A DNA stretch of 64,000 bases from Acidiluteibacter ferrifornacis. GTDB lineage: Bacteria > Bacteroidota > Bacteroidia > Flavobacteriales_E > Vicingaceae. Numbering within the stretch: position 1 is the stretch's first letter; each line of letters opens with the position of its first letter. A program made the translations under genes and the position numbers. This document shows positions 25,935 to 60,160 of this stretch, one piece after another. The notes under the pieces are model-generated. The model worked only from the letters and a program-made list of their open reading frames with translations, was not told the DNA's origin and made no database searches. The DNA lies in contig NZ_WWNE01000003.1 in the NCBI RefSeq assembly GCF_009909615.1, positions 557,248 through 621,247 of the forward strand, given 5' to 3'.

Positions 25935-28259
25935 TTAATTAATAAACAATATCTTACCAACATTTGTCTTTAAATTGCCGTTTCCATCTCCAGAACTACT
26001 GAATACCAAATATACTCCAGTTGCTGCTCTATCTCCATTGATAGTATTTCCATCCCAAATAGCCTGACCACCCAAGGACTTCATTTCTCTAACTAACTTT
26101 CCATTTATATCTGTTATTTTTACTATGGATCCATTAACTAATCCACGGATAGCAATTGGTCCACTATATTCAGGTCTAACTGGGTTGGGATATATTTCTA
26201 CTTGTTCAAAATCATTAAAACCGTTGGTTGCATCTCCCTTATATGATACAATTCCATCTTCTGTAGCAAAGAATATTTCTCCGTTAATATCATCAATTGC
26301 TAACCCAAACACATTGTTTGAAATAAGAGGGCTATTGTTAATAGTAAAATGTAGAATTTCTTCTGATCCGTCTTCCGATAGTAAGTAAACACCTTGTCCT
26401 TCTGTTGCAATCCACTTTCTATTTGCGCCATCTATTTTAATGTCAGATATTTTTATTGCTTCAAGTAATATTTCAACATCCGCTCCCTGTTGAATTAGTA
26501 TCCGTTGTGCATTCTTATTGCCTTCAAATACTCCATCTGGGTTATAGAATACGGCCAATCCGTCATCTGTCCCAATCCATATTTCTCCATCTTGATCTAC
26601 GGCACCTACTAATCCCCTAGCTCCGGGGATATTTCCATTCTCAGTTGCAGATGTTAATAATAATTTTCTATCATCACTTAAATCTTCTATCGTCCCATTA
26701 TCATCGAATACAAAAATCTCTAGGGTAGAACCTACTCTCGGTATAAGTACCCATTTTATTCCTGCATTCGAAATGAGTATGTCTCCTACAGATTTTGCAG
26801 AGGAAATGTCTTCTGGGAATCCAAAGTTATACCAATCCCCATTTGCTTTTTTCACGGAAATTAATGTGTCGGTATAGGTATGCGAGACCCATAGGTTACC
26901 ATTAGCATCGTATGTGCTACCTCCTATTCCAAACCAACTATAAGCAGTCCTTGAAGGTACTCTAGAATTGGAACTGTCATATACATTAACTACTCTATCG
27001 TCAAGTAATTCTATTAATCCTCCACCCCAACTACCAATAAATGCATTATTTTTATTAGCAGGATTTATTGTAATATTCAGTAAGTCAAAAGTCCCGTTGA
27101 GTTTCGATTCATTTTCTGGTACAAGATAGTTCCATGTCCCAGAGTTATAAATACTTATTTCGGGATATTTATATAGATTATTGTATGCAGAGTTGTATCC
27201 ACCTTGGACTGCATATACTTTTCCTCCATTTGCCTCTAGCTTAAAGACATTTTTAATACGTGGACCATTTGCACTGTACGTTGAATAGTTATTATTATTT
27301 TGTCTGACTAAGCCAATATCAAGGTCTGCATACCATAGGTTATTTGTTTCATTATCAATAGCAACGTACGAGGGGTTAAAATTTGAGATACCATTGTAAT
27401 TGTATACAGTATCTATCATTTCATGGTTGGAATTCATTTTTGCTACTTCTCTGTTAGATATAAAATAGGCATGGTCTTTTATAGCTATTACATCTTTAGT
27501 TTCATCTTTTTGAAAACCCTTATATTGTGTCCATTTACTACCTTTTTTTATATAGATGCTATCAGAGATATTTGATATTTTCTTTGAAATTGCAATGATG
27601 TTGTTTTCAAATTTTTCAATTGATCTGTATTCAAACCGTGATATATCAGGTATTAATTTCCAGTTTCTGTAATCAGTTAAATTAAGTTTTGTCGAGGCGT
27701 ATTTTACACCATTTTTTGTTGCTGCGTAAATAGTGTCTCTCAATACTGTTACATCAAATACTTCGTCGTATGTTCCATTATTTCCTACTATATATGAGTC
27801 TGATATTTCTCTCTTGTTGGTATTTACTTTTACTATTCCGAATCCTGTCGATAAATAGATATATTCTTGATCTACAAATAAATTATTAATGGTTTTGTTT
27901 GGAATGGTAAGGTTATTTTTTAGGAATGGAATATTAAAAATGGATTCATTTTTAAATAAATCAATATTTCCATTTGTGTAACCTATCACCAAGGTTTGGG
28001 ATTGTTCATTATATGCCAATGAATTTATTCCAACATCTGAAAGTCCATTGACTTTGCTTTTTCTATTGACAGAATTATCATTTTTATCAATGTAAAATAT
28101 AGCTGAACCCGTACTACAATATATTTTACCTCCCCCAATTGCTACTACCTCTCCACTACTGTATGGTAAATGATCTGTCCAGGAGCCCAAAGGTTTGTCT
28201 TGTGCGATTCCATTTAATATGAATAATGTTGGGAGTATTGCGGTTACAATTTTTTTCAT
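25935..28259 (-). CDS. porZ: PorZ-like type IX secretion component (two-component regulator propeller and sorting domain)
   Basis: 774 residues, close to the P. gingivalis PorZ length. A signal peptide ends near A-Q-D. Residues 25-660 form propeller-type repeats with G-I-V-K-V, G-L-V-R-Q and D-G-L-A-V-F motifs. The C-terminal 85 residues are a T9SS-type domain beginning Y-P-N-P-V-R and ending in G-K-I-L-F-I. PorZ acts at the cell surface with PorU, PorV and PorQ and delivers the A-LPS anchor to cargo proteins. The neighbour recO is a common setting in Bacteroidota as far as I recall. A generic propeller sensor without T9SS role is the alternative. Confidence 0.8.
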   Translation of the reverse strand: MKKIVTAILPTLFILNGIAQDKPLGSWTDHLPYSSGEVVAIGGGKIYCSTGSAIFYIDKNDNSVNRKSKVNGLSDVGINSLAYNEQSQTLVIGYTNGNIDLFKNESIFNIPFLKNNLTIPNKTINNLFVDQEYIYLSTGFGIVKVNTNKREISDSYIVGNNGTYDEVFDVTVLRDTIYAATKNGVKYASTKLNLTDYRNWKLIPDISRFEYRSIEKFENNIIAISKKISNISDSIYIKKGSKWTQYKGFQKDETKDVIAIKDHAYFISNREVAKMNSNHEMIDTVYNYNGISNFNPSYVAIDNETNNLWYADLDIGLVRQNNNNYSTYSANGPRIKNVFKLEANGGKVYAVQGGYNSAYNNLYKYPEISIYNSGTWNYLVPENESKLNGTFDLLNITINPANKNNAFIGSWGGGLIELLDDRVVNVYDSSNSRVPSRTAYSWFGIGGSTYDANGNLWVSHTYTDTLISVKKANGDWYNFGFPEDISSAKSVGDILISNAGIKWVLIPRVGSTLEIFVFDDNGTIEDLSDDRKLLLTSATENGNIPGARGLVGAVDQDGEIWIGTDDGLAVFYNPDGVFEGNKNAQRILIQQGADVEILLEAIKISDIKIDGANRKWIATEGQGVYLLSEDGSEEILHFTINNSPLISNNVFGLAIDDINGEIFFATEDGIVSYKGDATNGFNDFEQVEIYPNPVRPEYSGPIAIRGLVNGSIVKITDINGKLVREMKSLGGQAIWDGNTINGDRAATGVYLVFSSSGDGNGNLKTNVGKILFIN

Positions 28260-54385: not shown

Positions 54386-57300
54386 ATGAAGAAAATTCTA
54401 CTCTCAGCTTTGGTCATTGCTGGTACGTTATTTAGCAGCCAGTTAAAAGCACAGTGCACCGACCTCTTCTTTTCAGAATACTTGGAAGGAAGTAGTAATA
54501 ACAAAGCGATTGAAATTTACAATCCGACATCAGCCTCAATTAATTTAGGAGATTATGTTCTTTACAGGCATAATAACGGTTCAAGTTCTCCTTCTGATAG
54601 CCTTCACCCTCAAGGTGTAGTTTCCTCAAAGGGTGTTTTTGTGATTGCAAATCCTTCTGCTATAGCAAGTATTTTGGCTGTTATGGATACAACACATACA
54701 TTAACTTTTTACAATGGTGATGATGCTATCTGGCTTAAGAAAAAATCAACTGGTGATACTTTAGATATAATTGGAATTATAGGAAATGATCCTGGTGCAA
54801 ATTGGACTGTAGGAACTGGCGCTACTTCAGAAAATACATTAGTGAGGAAATTTTCTATTGATAATGGTCAAAAGAATTGGGCAACATCTACTTCTGAATG
54901 GTTAGTGTTTCCGCAAAATATGGCTGATTCATTAGGAGCTCATACATCTACTTGTGCTGCTGCTGCAGCGCCTCTTTCAGCTTCAGCTGTTGGAACGAAC
55001 GTTTCTTGTAATGGTGCAAATGATGGAGCAATTGACTTAACTGCAACTGGAGGAACAGCTCCATATACATACGCATGGAGTAATGCTGCAACAACTGAAG
55101 ATCTTTCAGGTTTAGCAGCAGGAACTTATAATGTAACAGTTACTGATGCTGCTTCAGCTACGACTACTGCTTCAGCAACTTTAACACAGCCTTCTGCTAT
55201 CATGCCTACAATAACTGTTTTAAATTCTATTTCATGTAATGGAAATACAGATGGAATTTTAGTAGCAGGCGCAACTGGAGGTTCGGGTGGTTATTCCTAC
55301 GCTTGGAGTAATGCAGTTTCTGGAACTACCAACTTAAATATTGGGGCAGGAAGATATACAGTTACAGTTACAGATAATTCGTCTTGTTCAGATACTGTTT
55401 CCTATTTGTTATCAGACCCTGCAGCAATTGGAATAGCAGGAAATATTAATAACGTTACTACAAATGGCGGTTCTGATGGATCAATTACATTGACTATAAC
55501 AAATGGAAATGCTCCTTTTACCTATTCTTGGAGTAACTCAGCAACAACTAAAGATATTTCAGGTTTAGCTGCAGGCACCTATACAGTTCAGGTTACAGAT
55601 AATGGAAACTGTATTAATTCTGAGTCTTTCACTGTGACTCAGCCTTCATCAATTACTATTACTAAAACATCTCAAACAGATGTGCTTTGTAATGCTGATG
55701 CTACAGGTGCAATAGATTTAACCATATCTGGAGGAACTACTCCTTATACTTATGTTTGGAGTAATGCTGCTACAACAGAGGATCTTTCAGGAATCACAGC
55801 GGGAAACTATAACATTACAGTTACAGATGCCAGTAGCACTACCGCTGTTTCAAGTTATACCATTACTGAGCCAACTGCAATTGTTGCCTCAGGAATAATA
55901 ACCAATGTTTCTTCAAACGGTGGAAGTAATGGAGCTGTAGACGTTTCAGTTTCTGGAGGAGTAACTCCATATGCTTATTCTTGGAGTAATGGTGCGACAA
56001 CCGAGGATGTGATGGGATTAATTTCAGGTTCATACTCCCAAACAGTTACCGATGCAAATGGTTGTACTTCTGTTTCTCCATATATCGTAACTCAACCAGC
56101 AGCATTAGTAGCGTCTATTACATCTCAGACAAATGTTTCATGTAATGGAGGGGCAAATGGTGCTATTGATTTAAGTGTTTCTGGTGGAGTATCACCATAT
56201 ACATATACATGGAATAATTCAGCAACAACTGAAGATCTTTCAGGTTTAGCTGCAGGGACTTATAATGTTATCGTATCTGATGCAAATAACACAACAAGTA
56301 CAGCTAGCACAACGATTACTGAGCCAACAGCAATTGCTATTGTAGATGCAATCACGAATGTTTCGGCAAATGGTTTATCTGATGGAGCTATAGATATTAC
56401 TGTAAGTGGAGGAACTTCTCCATATGTATTTGTGTGGAGCAATACATCTACAACGGAAGATTTATCAGGGTTAGCCGCAGGCTCTTATTCTGTGACAATT
56501 ACTGATGCAAATACTTGCTCAGCAACTGCAAATTATACAGTAACTCAACCCGCTGGATCTTTGGCCAATATGATAATTACTGAAATTTATTACAATGGTC
56601 CTGAATCAGGCACAGACTCTACTGAGTTTATTGAGCTTCAAAATATTGGTAATACTTCGGTGAGCTTAAATGGTTATAGTTTTACATCAGGAATTACGCA
56701 TACTTTTTCAGGAGGTACAGTTGCTCCAGGTGCTTATTTTGTAATTGCATTTGATTCCTCTGGATTTAGAAATACATTTGGAATGAATGCTGATGCTATT
56801 TGGGCGTCTGGTGGTTTATCAAATGGAGGAGAATTAATAGTATTAAAAGATGATTTTGGTAGAACAGTTGATTCTGTAGACTATGATGATAGCACTCCTT
56901 GGCCTTCGGGTTCTGCTGCAGGGAATCCTGATGGAGGCGGTGCTTCCATTATATTGTGTGATTCACTTGCCGATAATAGTATTGGATCTAACTGGAGCGC
57001 AGCAATTTCTCCAGTATCTGGTGTGATTGTAAATGGACTTCAAGTATTTGCTAATCCTGGTATGAAAGGCCTTTGTGCTGCACCAATGTCTATAGCAGTA
57101 GCTTTAGATTCAAATGTGACTTGTAATGCCGGTATGAATGGTGGAGCTACTGTTAATGTAACAGGAGGCTTAGCACCATTTACATATGCATGGTCTAATT
57201 CTGCAACAACTGCATCAATTACAGGTGTAGCTGCAGGTAAATATTATGTAACGGTTACAGATGCATTAAGTACTAGCTTAAATGACAGTGTGACAATCAC

Positions 57301-59218
57301 AGAGCCTACTGCAATCGTAGTAACAGATGCAATTACCAATGCTTCAGCAAATGGATTGACTGATGGTGCAATTGACATTACCGTTACAGGTGGAACAACT
57401 CCTTACACTTTTGTTTGGAGTAACTCTGCTACTACTGAAGATATTTCAGGAATCGGAGCAGGTTCTTATACTGTGACTGTTACTGACGCAAATGCTTGTA
57501 CTTCTGCAAACACTTATAGTGTAACTCAACCTACAACTATTACATTAGTTGATGTTATAACAAATGTTTCATGTAATGGAGGAGCAGATGGCTCTATTGC
57601 TTTGACTACTTCTGGTGGTGTATCTCCTTACACTTTCGTTTGGAGTAATGCAGCAACAACAGCGAATATTTCTAGTTTAACAGCTGGGGCTTATAATGTA
57701 ACTGTAACAGATGCGAATTCAGCTACAGTTACCGCTTCTTATACAGTTACAGAACCAACCGCACTTGCTATTTCAGGTAACGTAACTAATGCAACTACTT
57801 TTGGTGGTTCAGACGGTTCTGTTTCAACTACTGTAACCGGGGGTACGAGTCCTTACACTTATTTATGGAGTAATGCAGCAACTACTGCAACAGCTTCTAG
57901 TTTGTCAGCAGCGAAGTATTACTTAACAGTTACTGATGCTAACTTATGTACAAAGGTTGATTCTTTTGTTGTAGGACAACCTGCAGGAGCTATAGCTAGT
58001 TTGGTTATTACCGAGATTATGTATAACCCTGCTGAGTCAGGAACGGATACAACGGAGTTTATTGAATTTGTGAATGTTGGTTCAACCCCAGTTGATATGA
58101 CAGGATACAATATCGTTGAAGGTGTAGTGTATGCTTTCAATAACTTAGTTGTTGCACCTGGTCAATATGTTGTTGGAACAGTAGATTCTTCAGGTTTTAG
58201 AAATAGATTTGGCTTCGACGCTGATTTTGTATGGACTTCAGGAGGATTAAGTAACGGTGGAGAGGACATCACTATTGTTGATAATTTTGGTAGAACTGTT
58301 GATTCAGTAGATTTTAAAGATGTAGCCCCATGGCCATCTGGTTCTGCAGCAGGATTACCTGATGGTGGTGGTTCTTCAATCGTATTGTGTGACTCTACAG
58401 CTGATAATAATGTGGGCTCAAATTGGTTTGCAGCAACATCACCTGTAGTAGGTCAAATTATTAATGGATTCCAAGTTTATGCTAATCCAGGTGTTGGAGC
58501 TCCATGTATTCAAGCTATAGTACCAACAGTAGTCATTGATTCAAATGTTACTTGTAACGGATTGTCTAACGGTGGAGCAACTGTTTCTGCTACTGGAGGA
58601 ACAGCACCCTATTCTTTCGCATGGAGTAATACTGCTACTACGGCTTCTATAACTGGTGTAGCTGCAGGTACCTATACAGTTACTATAACTGATGCTGCAT
58701 CAACAACAATAATTGATAGTGCGGTAATTACTGAACCTGCTGCTATATCATTTACTTCTACTATAGTGGATGAAACTTCTGCTATGAATGATGGATCAGT
58801 TGATATTACTGTTTCAGGAGGAACTAGTCCTTACACATTTAATTGGAGTAATGCTGCAACTACTGAAGATATCACTGGATTGGCTGCGGGAACCTACACA
58901 GTAACAATTACTGATGCTAACAACTGTACATTTGTTGATTCAGCTATAGTGGCTTTTTCTGTAGGGTTGAATAAGGTTGTATTGAATAACAGCTCAGTGA
59001 ACATATTCCCTAACCCAACTAAAGGAGCATTTACAATTGAGACATTTGCTAAGTATAATCAAGTAACTGTAATGGACATTACAGGAAAAGAAGTGTTTAC
59101 AACAAATGTTTTCAAACCAATGCAATCTATCGACTTAGGTCAACAAGAAAAAGGGATATACTTTATCGCTATTCAAGGTGAGAATGGAAGAGTAATGAAG
59201 AAGGTGATTGTTCACTAG
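54386..59218 (+). CDS. Large T9SS cargo: lamin-tail domains and 13 SprB repeats
   Basis: 1610 residues with a signal peptide ending A-Q and a mature N-terminus at Cys24. By eye the order is: lamin-tail domain 1 (about 24-190), SprB repeats 1-7 (200-722), lamin-tail 2 (725-897), SprB repeats 8-11 (905-1199), lamin-tail 3 (1205-1374), SprB repeats 12-13 (1382-1524), and a T9SS sorting domain (about 1535-1610) that begins I-F-P-N-P-T. SprB repeats make long surface adhesins or filaments in gliding Bacteroidota; this is not SprB itself (much shorter). Lamin-tail domains may bind nucleic acid or matrix. Cysteines alternate between repeats in a regular pattern. A terminator follows. Confidence 0.93.
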   Translation: MKKILLSALVIAGTLFSSQLKAQCTDLFFSEYLEGSSNNKAIEIYNPTSASINLGDYVLYRHNNGSSSPSDSLHPQGVVSSKGVFVIANPSAIASILAVMDTTHTLTFYNGDDAIWLKKKSTGDTLDIIGIIGNDPGANWTVGTGATSENTLVRKFSIDNGQKNWATSTSEWLVFPQNMADSLGAHTSTCAAAAAPLSASAVGTNVSCNGANDGAIDLTATGGTAPYTYAWSNAATTEDLSGLAAGTYNVTVTDAASATTTASATLTQPSAIMPTITVLNSISCNGNTDGILVAGATGGSGGYSYAWSNAVSGTTNLNIGAGRYTVTVTDNSSCSDTVSYLLSDPAAIGIAGNINNVTTNGGSDGSITLTITNGNAPFTYSWSNSATTKDISGLAAGTYTVQVTDNGNCINSESFTVTQPSSITITKTSQTDVLCNADATGAIDLTISGGTTPYTYVWSNAATTEDLSGITAGNYNITVTDASSTTAVSSYTITEPTAIVASGIITNVSSNGGSNGAVDVSVSGGVTPYAYSWSNGATTEDVMGLISGSYSQTVTDANGCTSVSPYIVTQPAALVASITSQTNVSCNGGANGAIDLSVSGGVSPYTYTWNNSATTEDLSGLAAGTYNVIVSDANNTTSTASTTITEPTAIAIVDAITNVSANGLSDGAIDITVSGGTSPYVFVWSNTSTTEDLSGLAAGSYSVTITDANTCSATANYTVTQPAGSLANMIITEIYYNGPESGTDSTEFIELQNIGNTSVSLNGYSFTSGITHTFSGGTVAPGAYFVIAFDSSGFRNTFGMNADAIWASGGLSNGGELIVLKDDFGRTVDSVDYDDSTPWPSGSAAGNPDGGGASIILCDSLADNSIGSNWSAAISPVSGVIVNGLQVFANPGMKGLCAAPMSIAVALDSNVTCNAGMNGGATVNVTGGLAPFTYAWSNSATTASITGVAAGKYYVTVTDALSTSLNDSVTITEPTAIVVTDAITNASANGLTDGAIDITVTGGTTPYTFVWSNSATTEDISGIGAGSYTVTVTDANACTSANTYSVTQPTTITLVDVITNVSCNGGADGSIALTTSGGVSPYTFVWSNAATTANISSLTAGAYNVTVTDANSATVTASYTVTEPTALAISGNVTNATTFGGSDGSVSTTVTGGTSPYTYLWSNAATTATASSLSAAKYYLTVTDANLCTKVDSFVVGQPAGAIASLVITEIMYNPAESGTDTTEFIEFVNVGSTPVDMTGYNIVEGVVYAFNNLVVAPGQYVVGTVDSSGFRNRFGFDADFVWTSGGLSNGGEDITIVDNFGRTVDSVDFKDVAPWPSGSAAGLPDGGGSSIVLCDSTADNNVGSNWFAATSPVVGQIINGFQVYANPGVGAPCIQAIVPTVVIDSNVTCNGLSNGGATVSATGGTAPYSFAWSNTATTASITGVAAGTYTVTITDAASTTIIDSAVITEPAAISFTSTIVDETSAMNDGSVDITVSGGTSPYTFNWSNAATTEDITGLAAGTYTVTITDANNCTFVDSAIVAFSVGLNKVVLNNSSVNIFPNPTKGAFTIETFAKYNQVTVMDITGKEVFTTNVFKPMQSIDLGQQEKGIYFIAIQGENGRVMKKVIVH
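54983..58957 (+). repeat. Thirteen SprB repeats (protein-level, about 70 residues each) in three blocks
   Basis: Repeats 1-7 (54983-56551), 8-11 (57098-57982) and 12-13 (58529-58957) share the pattern G-G-x-x-P-Y-x-x-x-W-S-N ... A-T-T-x-D-x-S-G-L-A-A-G-T-Y-x-V-T-V-T-D. DNA-level identity between repeats is low, so the expansion is old. Cys positions alternate between consecutive repeats. Confidence 0.9.
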
Positions 59219-59596: not shown

Positions 59597-60160
59597 ATGA
59601 AAATGTTTAGATTGTTAATCAATGTTCTCTTTTTCTCTTTGATAATTTCTAGTTGTAATAAAGACAATTATGACGCATGTGAAGTACTTGATTGTGGAGT
59701 TGGATATTGTGCTGATGGAAGATGTCAATGTCCAAAGGGTTTCTATGGAGAGCGGTGTATACAGAATCATGCTCCTAAAGCAGTATTGGTTGAAAAAGTT
59801 GAGGTGATTAGGTTTCCTAATAAAAGGGTAGACTATACCGCTTGGGATAGTTTGGACAATCCCGATTTGCATTTGACCATTTACCAATCATTTAATAAAA
59901 TTTGGATCAGTAGCACTAGTATTCAAAACGCTGATTCTTCAATAACGCATTCATTTAATGTCAGTCCATTAGCGAGGTTGGATGAGATGGATTTGAGGTA
60001 TACAATCAGTTTGTACGATGATGACGGTAGTAAAGTGGATGAATTTATGGGTGGAGCACTTTTTTATCCTTATGATGAAGAAAAGCGATTAGTATCTACC
60101 AAGATTGTTGATAATGATGGGTTTGTTGCTTTTAAACTGTATTTGAAATATGAGTTTTAG
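59597..60160 (+). CDS. Lipoprotein with one EGF-like domain
   Basis: 187 residues. A lipoprotein signal ends I-S-S-C (about residue 20). A six-cysteine EGF-like module follows at about 27-54: C-E-V-L-D-C-G-V-G-Y-C, then C-Q-C-P-K-G-F-Y-G-E-R-C, the calcium-free EGF pattern. The remaining 130 residues are beta-rich with an aromatic C-terminus. EGF-like modules are rare in bacteria and mostly serve binding on the surface. It has no visible partner and meets the vWA gene tail to tail. Confidence 0.8.
   Translation: MKMFRLLINVLFFSLIISSCNKDNYDACEVLDCGVGYCADGRCQCPKGFYGERCIQNHAPKAVLVEKVEVIRFPNKRVDYTAWDSLDNPDLHLTIYQSFNKIWISSTSIQNADSSITHSFNVSPLARLDEMDLRYTISLYDDDGSKVDEFMGGALFYPYDEEKRLVSTKIVDNDGFVAFKLYLKYEF

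Follow-up and report, generated by a model that had tools for sequence, protein, structure and literature searches.

Early and late cysteines of successive SprB repeats behave as partners in a surface protein of Acidiluteibacter ferrifornacis and across the repeat family

A 64,000-nucleotide stretch of the genome of Acidiluteibacter ferrifornacis (contig NZ_WWNE01000003.1, forward-strand positions 557,248 to 621,247; hereafter the window) encodes a 1610-residue protein with 13 SprB repeats (R1–R13), in which cysteines occupy an early site, a late site, or both. The gene, defined by its open reading frame (ORF) and by Pfam and NCBIfam profiles, lies on the forward strand at 54386..59218. The best overall explanation of the cysteine pattern, and one that is very probably correct, is that a disulfide links the early Cys of one repeat (n) to the late Cys of the following one (n+1), that such bonds staple the junctions between SprB repeats throughout the family, and that three junctions of this protein have lost both partners together. 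The positions of these cysteines, their covariation across the family, the fold class of a structure model, and the patterns at array ends and in relatives are observations; from these we infer that the cysteines are oxidised, how the bonded domains face each other, and a mechanical role.

The protein comprises a probable signal peptide, a first lamin-tail domain (LTD1), repeats 1–7 (residues 196–723; 54971..56554), LTD2, repeats 8–11 (57086..57985), LTD3, repeats 12–13 (58517..58960, delimited by their Cys and Trp positions) and a C-terminal domain of the type A of the type IX secretion system (T9SS). The ORF contains exactly 20 cysteines, all at the residues named in the initial annotation, and the 13 repeats counted there were recovered from the translation, from the Pfam matches and from the Trp by which each repeat was located. 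The early Cys always lies 23 residues before this Trp (R1, R2, R4, R6, R8, R10 and R12), and the late Cys always 27 residues after it (R2, R3, R5, R7, R9, R11 and R13). As had been stated, a late Cys stands 124–126 residues after every early Cys, in the repeat that comes next, a rule that holds in seven of seven cases (126, 125, 125, 125, 125, 125 and 124). The corresponding staples, all on the forward strand, would join Cys208 (55007) to Cys334 (55385) between R1 and R2 (55007..55387), Cys284 (55235) to Cys409 (55610) between R2 and R3 (55235..55612, overlapping the first), Cys435 (55688) to Cys560 (56063) between R4 and R5 (55688..56065), Cys586 (56141) to Cys711 (56516) between R6 and R7 (56141..56518), Cys913 (57122) to Cys1038 (57497) between R8 and R9 (57122..57499), Cys1063 (57572) to Cys1188 (57947) between R10 and R11 (57572..57949), and Cys1390 (58553) to Cys1514 (58925) between R12 and R13 (58553..58927). 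The R4–R5 and R6–R7 staples are proposed from the Cys positions and an AlphaFold model, the other five from the Cys positions and the rule of the family described below. Together with one disulfide in each lamin-tail domain, these seven staples would use all 20 cysteines.

With the early sites fixed, a random placing of the seven late Cys over the 13 repeats would match all seven with a probability of 1/1716, a value that duplication would make too small, since the calculation takes the repeats as independent. The ten junctions within arrays carry an early/late pair in seven cases, neither Cys in three (R3–R4, R5–R6 and R9–R10) and half a pair in none, and no Cys is left over at the array ends. 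The alternation therefore rests on three gaps and not on 13 independent facts. The claim that late and early Cys of adjacent repeats are 25–26 residues apart holds for three steps (409–435, 560–586 and 1038–1063) and fails elsewhere, where the intervening stretch includes a lamin-tail domain or a repeat that lacks the early Cys.

We further analyzed the cysteine sites across the family. Arrays were collected with a whole-repeat profile of 73–74 columns that was built from the window and iterated over 80 loci and over regions from genomes of the phylum, of the relatives of the window and of its own genome. The loci represent 80 of 406 relatives, picked by likeness to R4–R7 and not by their cysteines, and the other regions were hand-picked from the best-scoring matches; the sample favours clear SprB repeats. 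Among 395 genomes taken from the phylum, 78 have SprB repeats that score above the cut-off of the family. In the first survey set Cys fills 2361 of 2487 copies of the early column and 2487 of 2606 of the late one, in agreement with the earlier statement that SprB repeats usually hold both. Loci L001–L030 and L111–L139, of about 3 kb each and with arrays cut by their ends, contributed to the first counts, these among them, and were left out of the later ones; L193–L212 lie outside the survey. Fourteen of 371 arrays were dropped as duplicates, including those of L214, which shares an identical 734-residue ORF with L099. With the window and L186 left out, the final set comprised 352 arrays, 4,118 repeats and 3,252 internal junctions. 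The three window arrays were kept out of the co-loss, shuffle, lone-Cys and optional-pair, ending and array-end statistics and of the junction recount, and were included in the first coupling run, and alignment A1 used 127 of the 128 chosen relatives. The arrays of L186, which follow another Cys pattern, were excluded from the final co-loss analysis, the filtered coupling and the junction recount, and were included in the shuffles, the counts of lone Cys and optional Cys pairs, the counts of array schemes and the first coupling run. The L186 ORF (position 6212, reverse strand) carries repeats of another type, each with two internal Cys, that were caught by the SprB profile.

Absence of the early Cys in one repeat goes together with absence of the late Cys in the next. 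Both are missing at 61 of the 3,252 internal junctions, in 28 ORFs, against 2.8 expected, whereas the two Cys of one internal repeat are both missing once, against 3.0 expected, and the late Cys of n together with the early Cys of n+1 five times, against 2.3. Viewed from the late site, 61 of the 70 internal losses coincide with absence of the early Cys from the preceding repeat (80-locus set, 12 of 17; genome-region set, 49 of 53). In 29 ORFs both the early and the late Cys are lost at some internal position; of these, 28 show co-loss from n to n+1, one within the same repeat and five in the reverse direction. When the window is included, there are 73 co-loss junctions. Clustering at 50% identity divides them into 46 groups whose representatives come from 23 ORFs, and they are therefore not copies of one event. 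None of 2000 shuffles of the late Cys inside arrays attained the observed count at offset +1. Offset −2 was raised as well (33 versus 14.5) and was rejected as a genuine signal, since the excess vanishes on removal of four loci with three-repeat modules: offset −2 then stands at 3 versus 3.3 and offset +1 at 32 observed versus 7.5 in shuffles, a count that shuffling again failed to attain, with 32 of 39 late losses explained. Long arrays of a three-repeat module (−L, E−, EL, where E and L denote the early and the late Cys), present up to twelve times, were found in L246, L163, L141 and L170, and in these every third junction is unstapled.

Mean-field direct coupling analysis of 3,475 neighbouring repeat pairs singled out the same two sites. 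Of 5,329 inter-repeat column pairs, C9 of repeat n with C59 of repeat n+1, that is, early Cys with next late Cys, ranks first with a z value of 28.8 when the window, its relatives and L186 are included. It stays first without the window, L186 and L213–L219 (z 25.1) and with at most five junctions per array (z 17.4). Two optional Cys pairs, present in subsets of arrays, occupy ranks 1 and 2 of the 2,415 intra-repeat column pairs. Columns 13 and 45 both hold Cys in 437 repeats and only one of them does so in 14 and 2; for columns 50 and 64 the counts are 46 repeats with both and 1 and 5 with one, a behaviour that suggests intra-repeat disulfides. Because these pairs are recovered as the top intra-repeat couplings, the method tells intra-repeat from inter-repeat partners. 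Further inter-repeat couplings, with z values of 3.4–5.2, connect the A–B loop and the exit linker of n to the B–C and F–G loops of n+1 (G11–G24, C9–N57, P70–T25 and I73–A61).

The AlphaFold model of R4–R7 (mean pLDDT 98.0, pTM 0.80) contains six called strands per repeat and aligns over its full length with tandem Ig-like chains, including GhpA, titin and fibronectin fragments. By this fold class, the SprB repeats of the protein are predicted to be Ig-like beta-sandwich domains arranged end to end. Cys435 is located between strands A and B, and Cys560 just before strand G. The modelled strands, together with couplings between strands A and G (V4–V65, V7–I67, V7–E69 and N10–E69), indicate that strand A runs parallel to strand G and, consequently, that the two Cys of one repeat would lie at opposite poles of the Ig-like domain. 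They would be separated by about ten strand residues, or near 33 Å by estimate. In an end-to-end chain, the strand order, the A–G couplings and the tandem fold suggest a pole-to-pole geometry in which the early Cys of n would meet the late Cys of n+1.

Under the n to n+1 scheme, no partner is available inside the array for the late Cys of its first repeat or for the early Cys of its last. Of 217 first repeats, 149 keep the late Cys, compared with 3413 of 3489 internal ones; for the early Cys, 146 of 212 last repeats keep it, compared with 3348 of 3489. A Cys is found within 80 flanking residues in 124 of the 130 first repeats with a late Cys versus 38 of the 50 without it (Fisher p 0.0003), and in 118 of the 127 last repeats with an early Cys versus 32 of the 45 without it (Fisher p 0.0005). 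The converse controls display no trend: flanking Cys accompany 27 of 28 repeats without and 135 of 152 with an early Cys, and 9 of 10 without and 141 of 162 with a late Cys.

Several relatives of the protein follow the same rule. In L213, from the same genus, a 1847-residue ORF has 20 repeat Cys that form ten n to n+1 pairs at 124–126 residues, and the remaining six fit the lamin-tail pairs of the window protein, so that all 26 Cys are paired by one rule. The 16 repeat Cys of L215, from the same family, are paired at 126 residues each; its three further Cys comprise two that agree with LTD1 and one at position 3 of the open frame. In L217 and L219 all repeat Cys are paired, with no leftovers. 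Of the two schemes put forward initially, the bond between early Cys and next late Cys is thus strongly supported by co-loss, direct coupling, array ends and relatives. The arrangement had been presented as special with respect to the two-Cys norm, a view that does not stand, as n to n+1 pairing is the rule of the family in the co-loss and coupling data. Elsewhere in the genus, a related gene (G396:C1:71398-73905; L214, L099) appears interrupted upstream, with one TAG inside the match. The own genome encodes, in addition, a 3997-residue SprB-repeat ORF (C16, about 361338-372224, reverse strand; L187), whose listed fragments are mostly canonical EL repeats.

The origin of the alternation is a separate matter. 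It seems rather likely that the pattern of stapling at every other junction has no function of its own and is the footprint of a duplicated ancestral two-repeat unit, an explanation compatible with the staples themselves. With the Cys columns masked, mean identity is 0.552 among early-type repeats, 0.506 between late-type repeats and 0.492 between early and late types, and close pairs are of the same type (R8/R12 69%, R7/R9 68%, R4/R6 65%). The alternation of TEP and QP at the ends of repeats 4–12, noticed in the initial annotation, is real in the translation and in step with the Cys type, and these endings have no clear link to the Cys state in the family. Three-repeat units elsewhere (in the four loci named above) also agree with duplication. 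Against it, the types differ only moderately in identity, the repeats are old (46–69% identical in DNA), R11 and R13 have no clear same-type partner, and alternation also occurs in L153 and L165, from genomes of another family of the class. The TEP and QP endings were considered as a part of the mechanism, which the counts do not support: where the late Cys is present, E is found in 1287 and Q in 1294 of 3392 repeats, and where it is absent, in 62 and 51 of 142.

Several observations weigh against disulfides from n to n+1. Two end Cys are left over in L218; two end Cys and one half junction in the two ORFs of L216; and Cys95 and Cys162 in L099, a same-genus fragment (Vicingaceae bacterium AH-660-G13) with the pairs 112–238, 188–313 and 515–639. 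In about two-thirds of first repeats the late Cys is present, which requires a partner in another domain. Nor does the rule account for the shortage of the early Cys in first repeats (179 of 217 keep it, a smaller share than among internal repeats). The late Cys of n+1 is kept without the early Cys of n at 69 of the 3,252 internal junctions, and the converse occurs at nine. Wider Cys windows change these classes from 69 and 9 to 20 and 11, and 50 of the 69 lone late Cys have some Cys at most 13 residues before or at most 8 after the expected early site. Five of the nine lonely early Cys are part of a CxxC motif (three times in L031, and in L032 and L033), as if a local partner had been gained. 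In the 77 mixed arrays, ends counted, pairing within the repeat is the best scheme in 50 and pairing with the next repeat in 51, with ties credited to both; this near-tie is due to the canonical ends, where pairing with the next repeat has two Cys to spare, and the leftover Cys number 277 within the repeat and 203 with the next repeat. The reverse coupling, between the late Cys of n and the early Cys of n+1, reaches z 4.6 and rank 20 when the window, L186 and the relatives are included. Finally, searches of the genome for four families (VKOR, DsbB, DsbA and Thioredoxin_4) found no enzyme for periplasmic oxidation; VKOR and DsbB had no match. The sole DsbA/Thioredoxin_4 match, one gene for both families, starts with the thioredoxin fold and has no signal peptide by eye; its product looks cytosolic, and a reading of it as a periplasmic oxidase was dropped on account of this start. 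Exported proteins with many paired Cys are nevertheless encoded in the genome.

These last points would fit a contact between the early site of n and the late site of n+1 that involves no disulfide but a jointly held metal, free thiols or cross-links between molecules. Covariation indicates contact or joint need and not oxidation state, and junctions with only one partner do exist (the 69 and 9 given above). On the other hand, joint retention or loss of two Cys in exported proteins usually marks a disulfide; no extra metal-ligand columns appear among the top couplings listed, although no search was aimed at ligands; and periplasmic disulfides do form in the relative Flavobacterium johnsoniae, as described in PMC12635249. 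We regard the non-disulfide contact as improbable.

A bond between the early and the late Cys of the same repeat, about 50 residues apart, is considerably less plausible still. Under this explanation the window protein would have lost halves of its pairs at random and kept a single bond, 284–334 in R2. Both Cys are together in 3653 of 4127 repeats, which leaves such a bond compatible with co-presence alone, many arrays begin and end with EL, and with ends counted it is best or tied in 50 of the 77 mixed arrays. It is rejected on its internal co-absence of one against 3.0 expected and on its coupling, which has z values of 1.7–3.0 in the filtered runs and ranks 380 of 2,415 in the full run, where the optional Cys pairs take the first two places. 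The parallel arrangement of strands A and G would place the two sites at opposite poles, and 12 of the 14 repeat Cys of the window protein would be left single. The second scheme of the initial annotation, a clamp in which the late Cys of n bonds the early Cys of n+1 across the junction, is rejected: its spacing of 25 or 26 residues is very regular in the family (2761 of 3409) and its coupling is raised in the full run, but without the window, L186 and L213–L219 that coupling drops to z 0.1 (rank 2351 of 5,329; −0.4 with at most five junctions per array), co-absence is only five against 2.3 expected, the topology suggested by the couplings and the model would put the sites at the far poles of two consecutive domains, and the window protein offers only the three neighbours listed above.

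With disulfides from n to n+1, the protein would form a surface stalk of Ig-like SprB repeats set end to end and exported by the T9SS. The early Cys, in the A–B loop at the exit pole of n, would bond the late Cys, in the F–G loop before strand G at the entry pole of n+1. Canonical arrays carry both Cys in every repeat, in this view because each serves a different staple, and all their junctions would be stapled by interlocking loops; in the window protein, R3–R4, R5–R6 and R9–R10 would have lost both partners together, giving the alternating pattern. Each staple would close a 125-residue loop over two domains. The likely role of the staples is mechanical, to stiffen the stalk and to shield the domains from unfolding under pull: load would pass from strand A of n through the bond to strand G of n+1 and onward, and the bodies of both domains would be spared. 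With alternate staples the load path would still be unbroken and the loops would not overlap. More speculatively, SprB stalks may be covalently laced from domain to domain, with stapling at every second junction as the smallest set that keeps the load path unbroken (from strand A of n through the bond to strand G of n+1, then to strand A of n+2 and the bond after it) and the other joints left flexible, such that the number of staples tunes stiffness and reach; we consider this extension possible and doubtful.

The window protein shares with about 95% of the relatives sampled the early CNG and the late DANGC sites of the SprB repeat (PF13573), and differs from the usual arrays of this family in the three junctions without a Cys pair that give the alternation. 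Thirteen stretches match PF13573 (E 6.4e-129, 419.7 bits against a cut-off of 28). The Pfam model, however, has 37 positions (best match residues 204–236) and ends before the late Cys, and therefore cannot show the pair. A search of the PDB with one sequence revealed nothing clear (best E 0.018). By profile and by fold over the whole model, the best solved relative is the grappling hook protein GhpA of Aureispira sp. CCB-QB1 (PDB codes 9FLP, 9FLU and others; profile E 1.4e-33), which matches the model with a VIA-align Z of 11.6 and a root mean square deviation of 6.5 over 280 aligned residues. In its aligned part (residues 1203–1481), successive domains carry a Cys near the early site and a Cys in an NGC-like turn; identity to the model is 16–22% in eight GhpA rows. 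The GhpA entries may already hold equivalent bonds. GhpA reportedly assembles as a heptamer.

As a general feature, disulfides that join tandem Ig-like domains are known. A family-wide ladder from n to n+1 in SprB repeats was not described in the literature searched, which lacked the papers that report the GhpA structures. If the ladder exists, the two conserved Cys of one repeat are not partners, contrary to the single-repeat assumption, and a single repeat or short fragment, when expressed, would keep single thiols at its ends. SprB stalks reach thousands of residues, and stapling from n to n+1 would offer a direct test of how they bear load. Disulfides serve mechanical coupling in Bacteroidota in the SprF–GldK and PorG–GldK bonds of the gliding and T9SS machinery; according to PMC12635249, these join different periplasmic proteins, whereas the proposed staples lie within one surface protein.

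The gliding adhesin SprB of F. johnsoniae has the repeat family and T9SS export in common with the window protein, and is a type B substrate of that system according to PMC12635249, whereas the window protein has a type A domain. This domain occupies residues 1540–1609/1610 (59003..59215, forward strand) and matches Por_Secre_tail (PF18962, E 2.1e-23) at the C-terminus and the type A sorting profile TIGR04183 (66.1 bits against a cut-off of 23). TIGR04131, which represents the type B C-terminal domain according to PMC7073777, has no match in the protein at E 0.1 or better.

At the opposite end, residues 1 to about 22 or 23 (54386..54454) probably constitute a Sec signal peptide, as judged by eye from the translation. 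The three Pfam LTD matches each enclose a proposed Cys pair on the forward strand: Cys24 (54455) and Cys190 (54953) in LTD1 (54455..54955), with Cys26 and Cys200 as counterparts in L213; Cys858 (56957) and Cys897 (57074), 39 residues apart, in LTD2 (56555..57085); and Cys1335 (58388) and Cys1374 (58505), likewise 39 apart, in LTD3 (57986..58516). The lamin-tail pairs suggested in the initial annotation fared unequally. In 18 distinct sequences, window copies included, a pair of the 858–897 type has both Cys in seven, neither in four and a single one in none, with seven uncovered, which favours the pair on few sequences. The 24–190 pair, with both Cys in three sequences, the first only in one and one uncovered (window included), has numbers too small to judge. 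A match to the ExeM-like extracellular nuclease profile (NF033680) was rejected, as it scores 81.4 bits against a cut-off of 1300 and is confined to residues 8–226.

The gene of the gliding adhesin SprB has an adjacent sprF-like gene of the PorP family. No PorP/SprF-like gene was found among the larger neighbours of the window gene, ORFs of less than 300 amino acids upstream of 53000 being left out; these neighbours encode an M49 peptidase, a weak EGF-like protein, a VWA protein, a GH3 protein, DXP reductoisomerase and an M50 peptidase. A PorZ-like protein, a component of the T9SS, is encoded in the window at 25938-28259 on the reverse strand (PF21544, E 4.4e-41). The stalk gene is adjoined by that of a small protein (59597-60157, forward strand) with a lipoprotein-like start, as judged by eye, and a weak EGF-like Cys motif that scores below the Pfam cut-offs.

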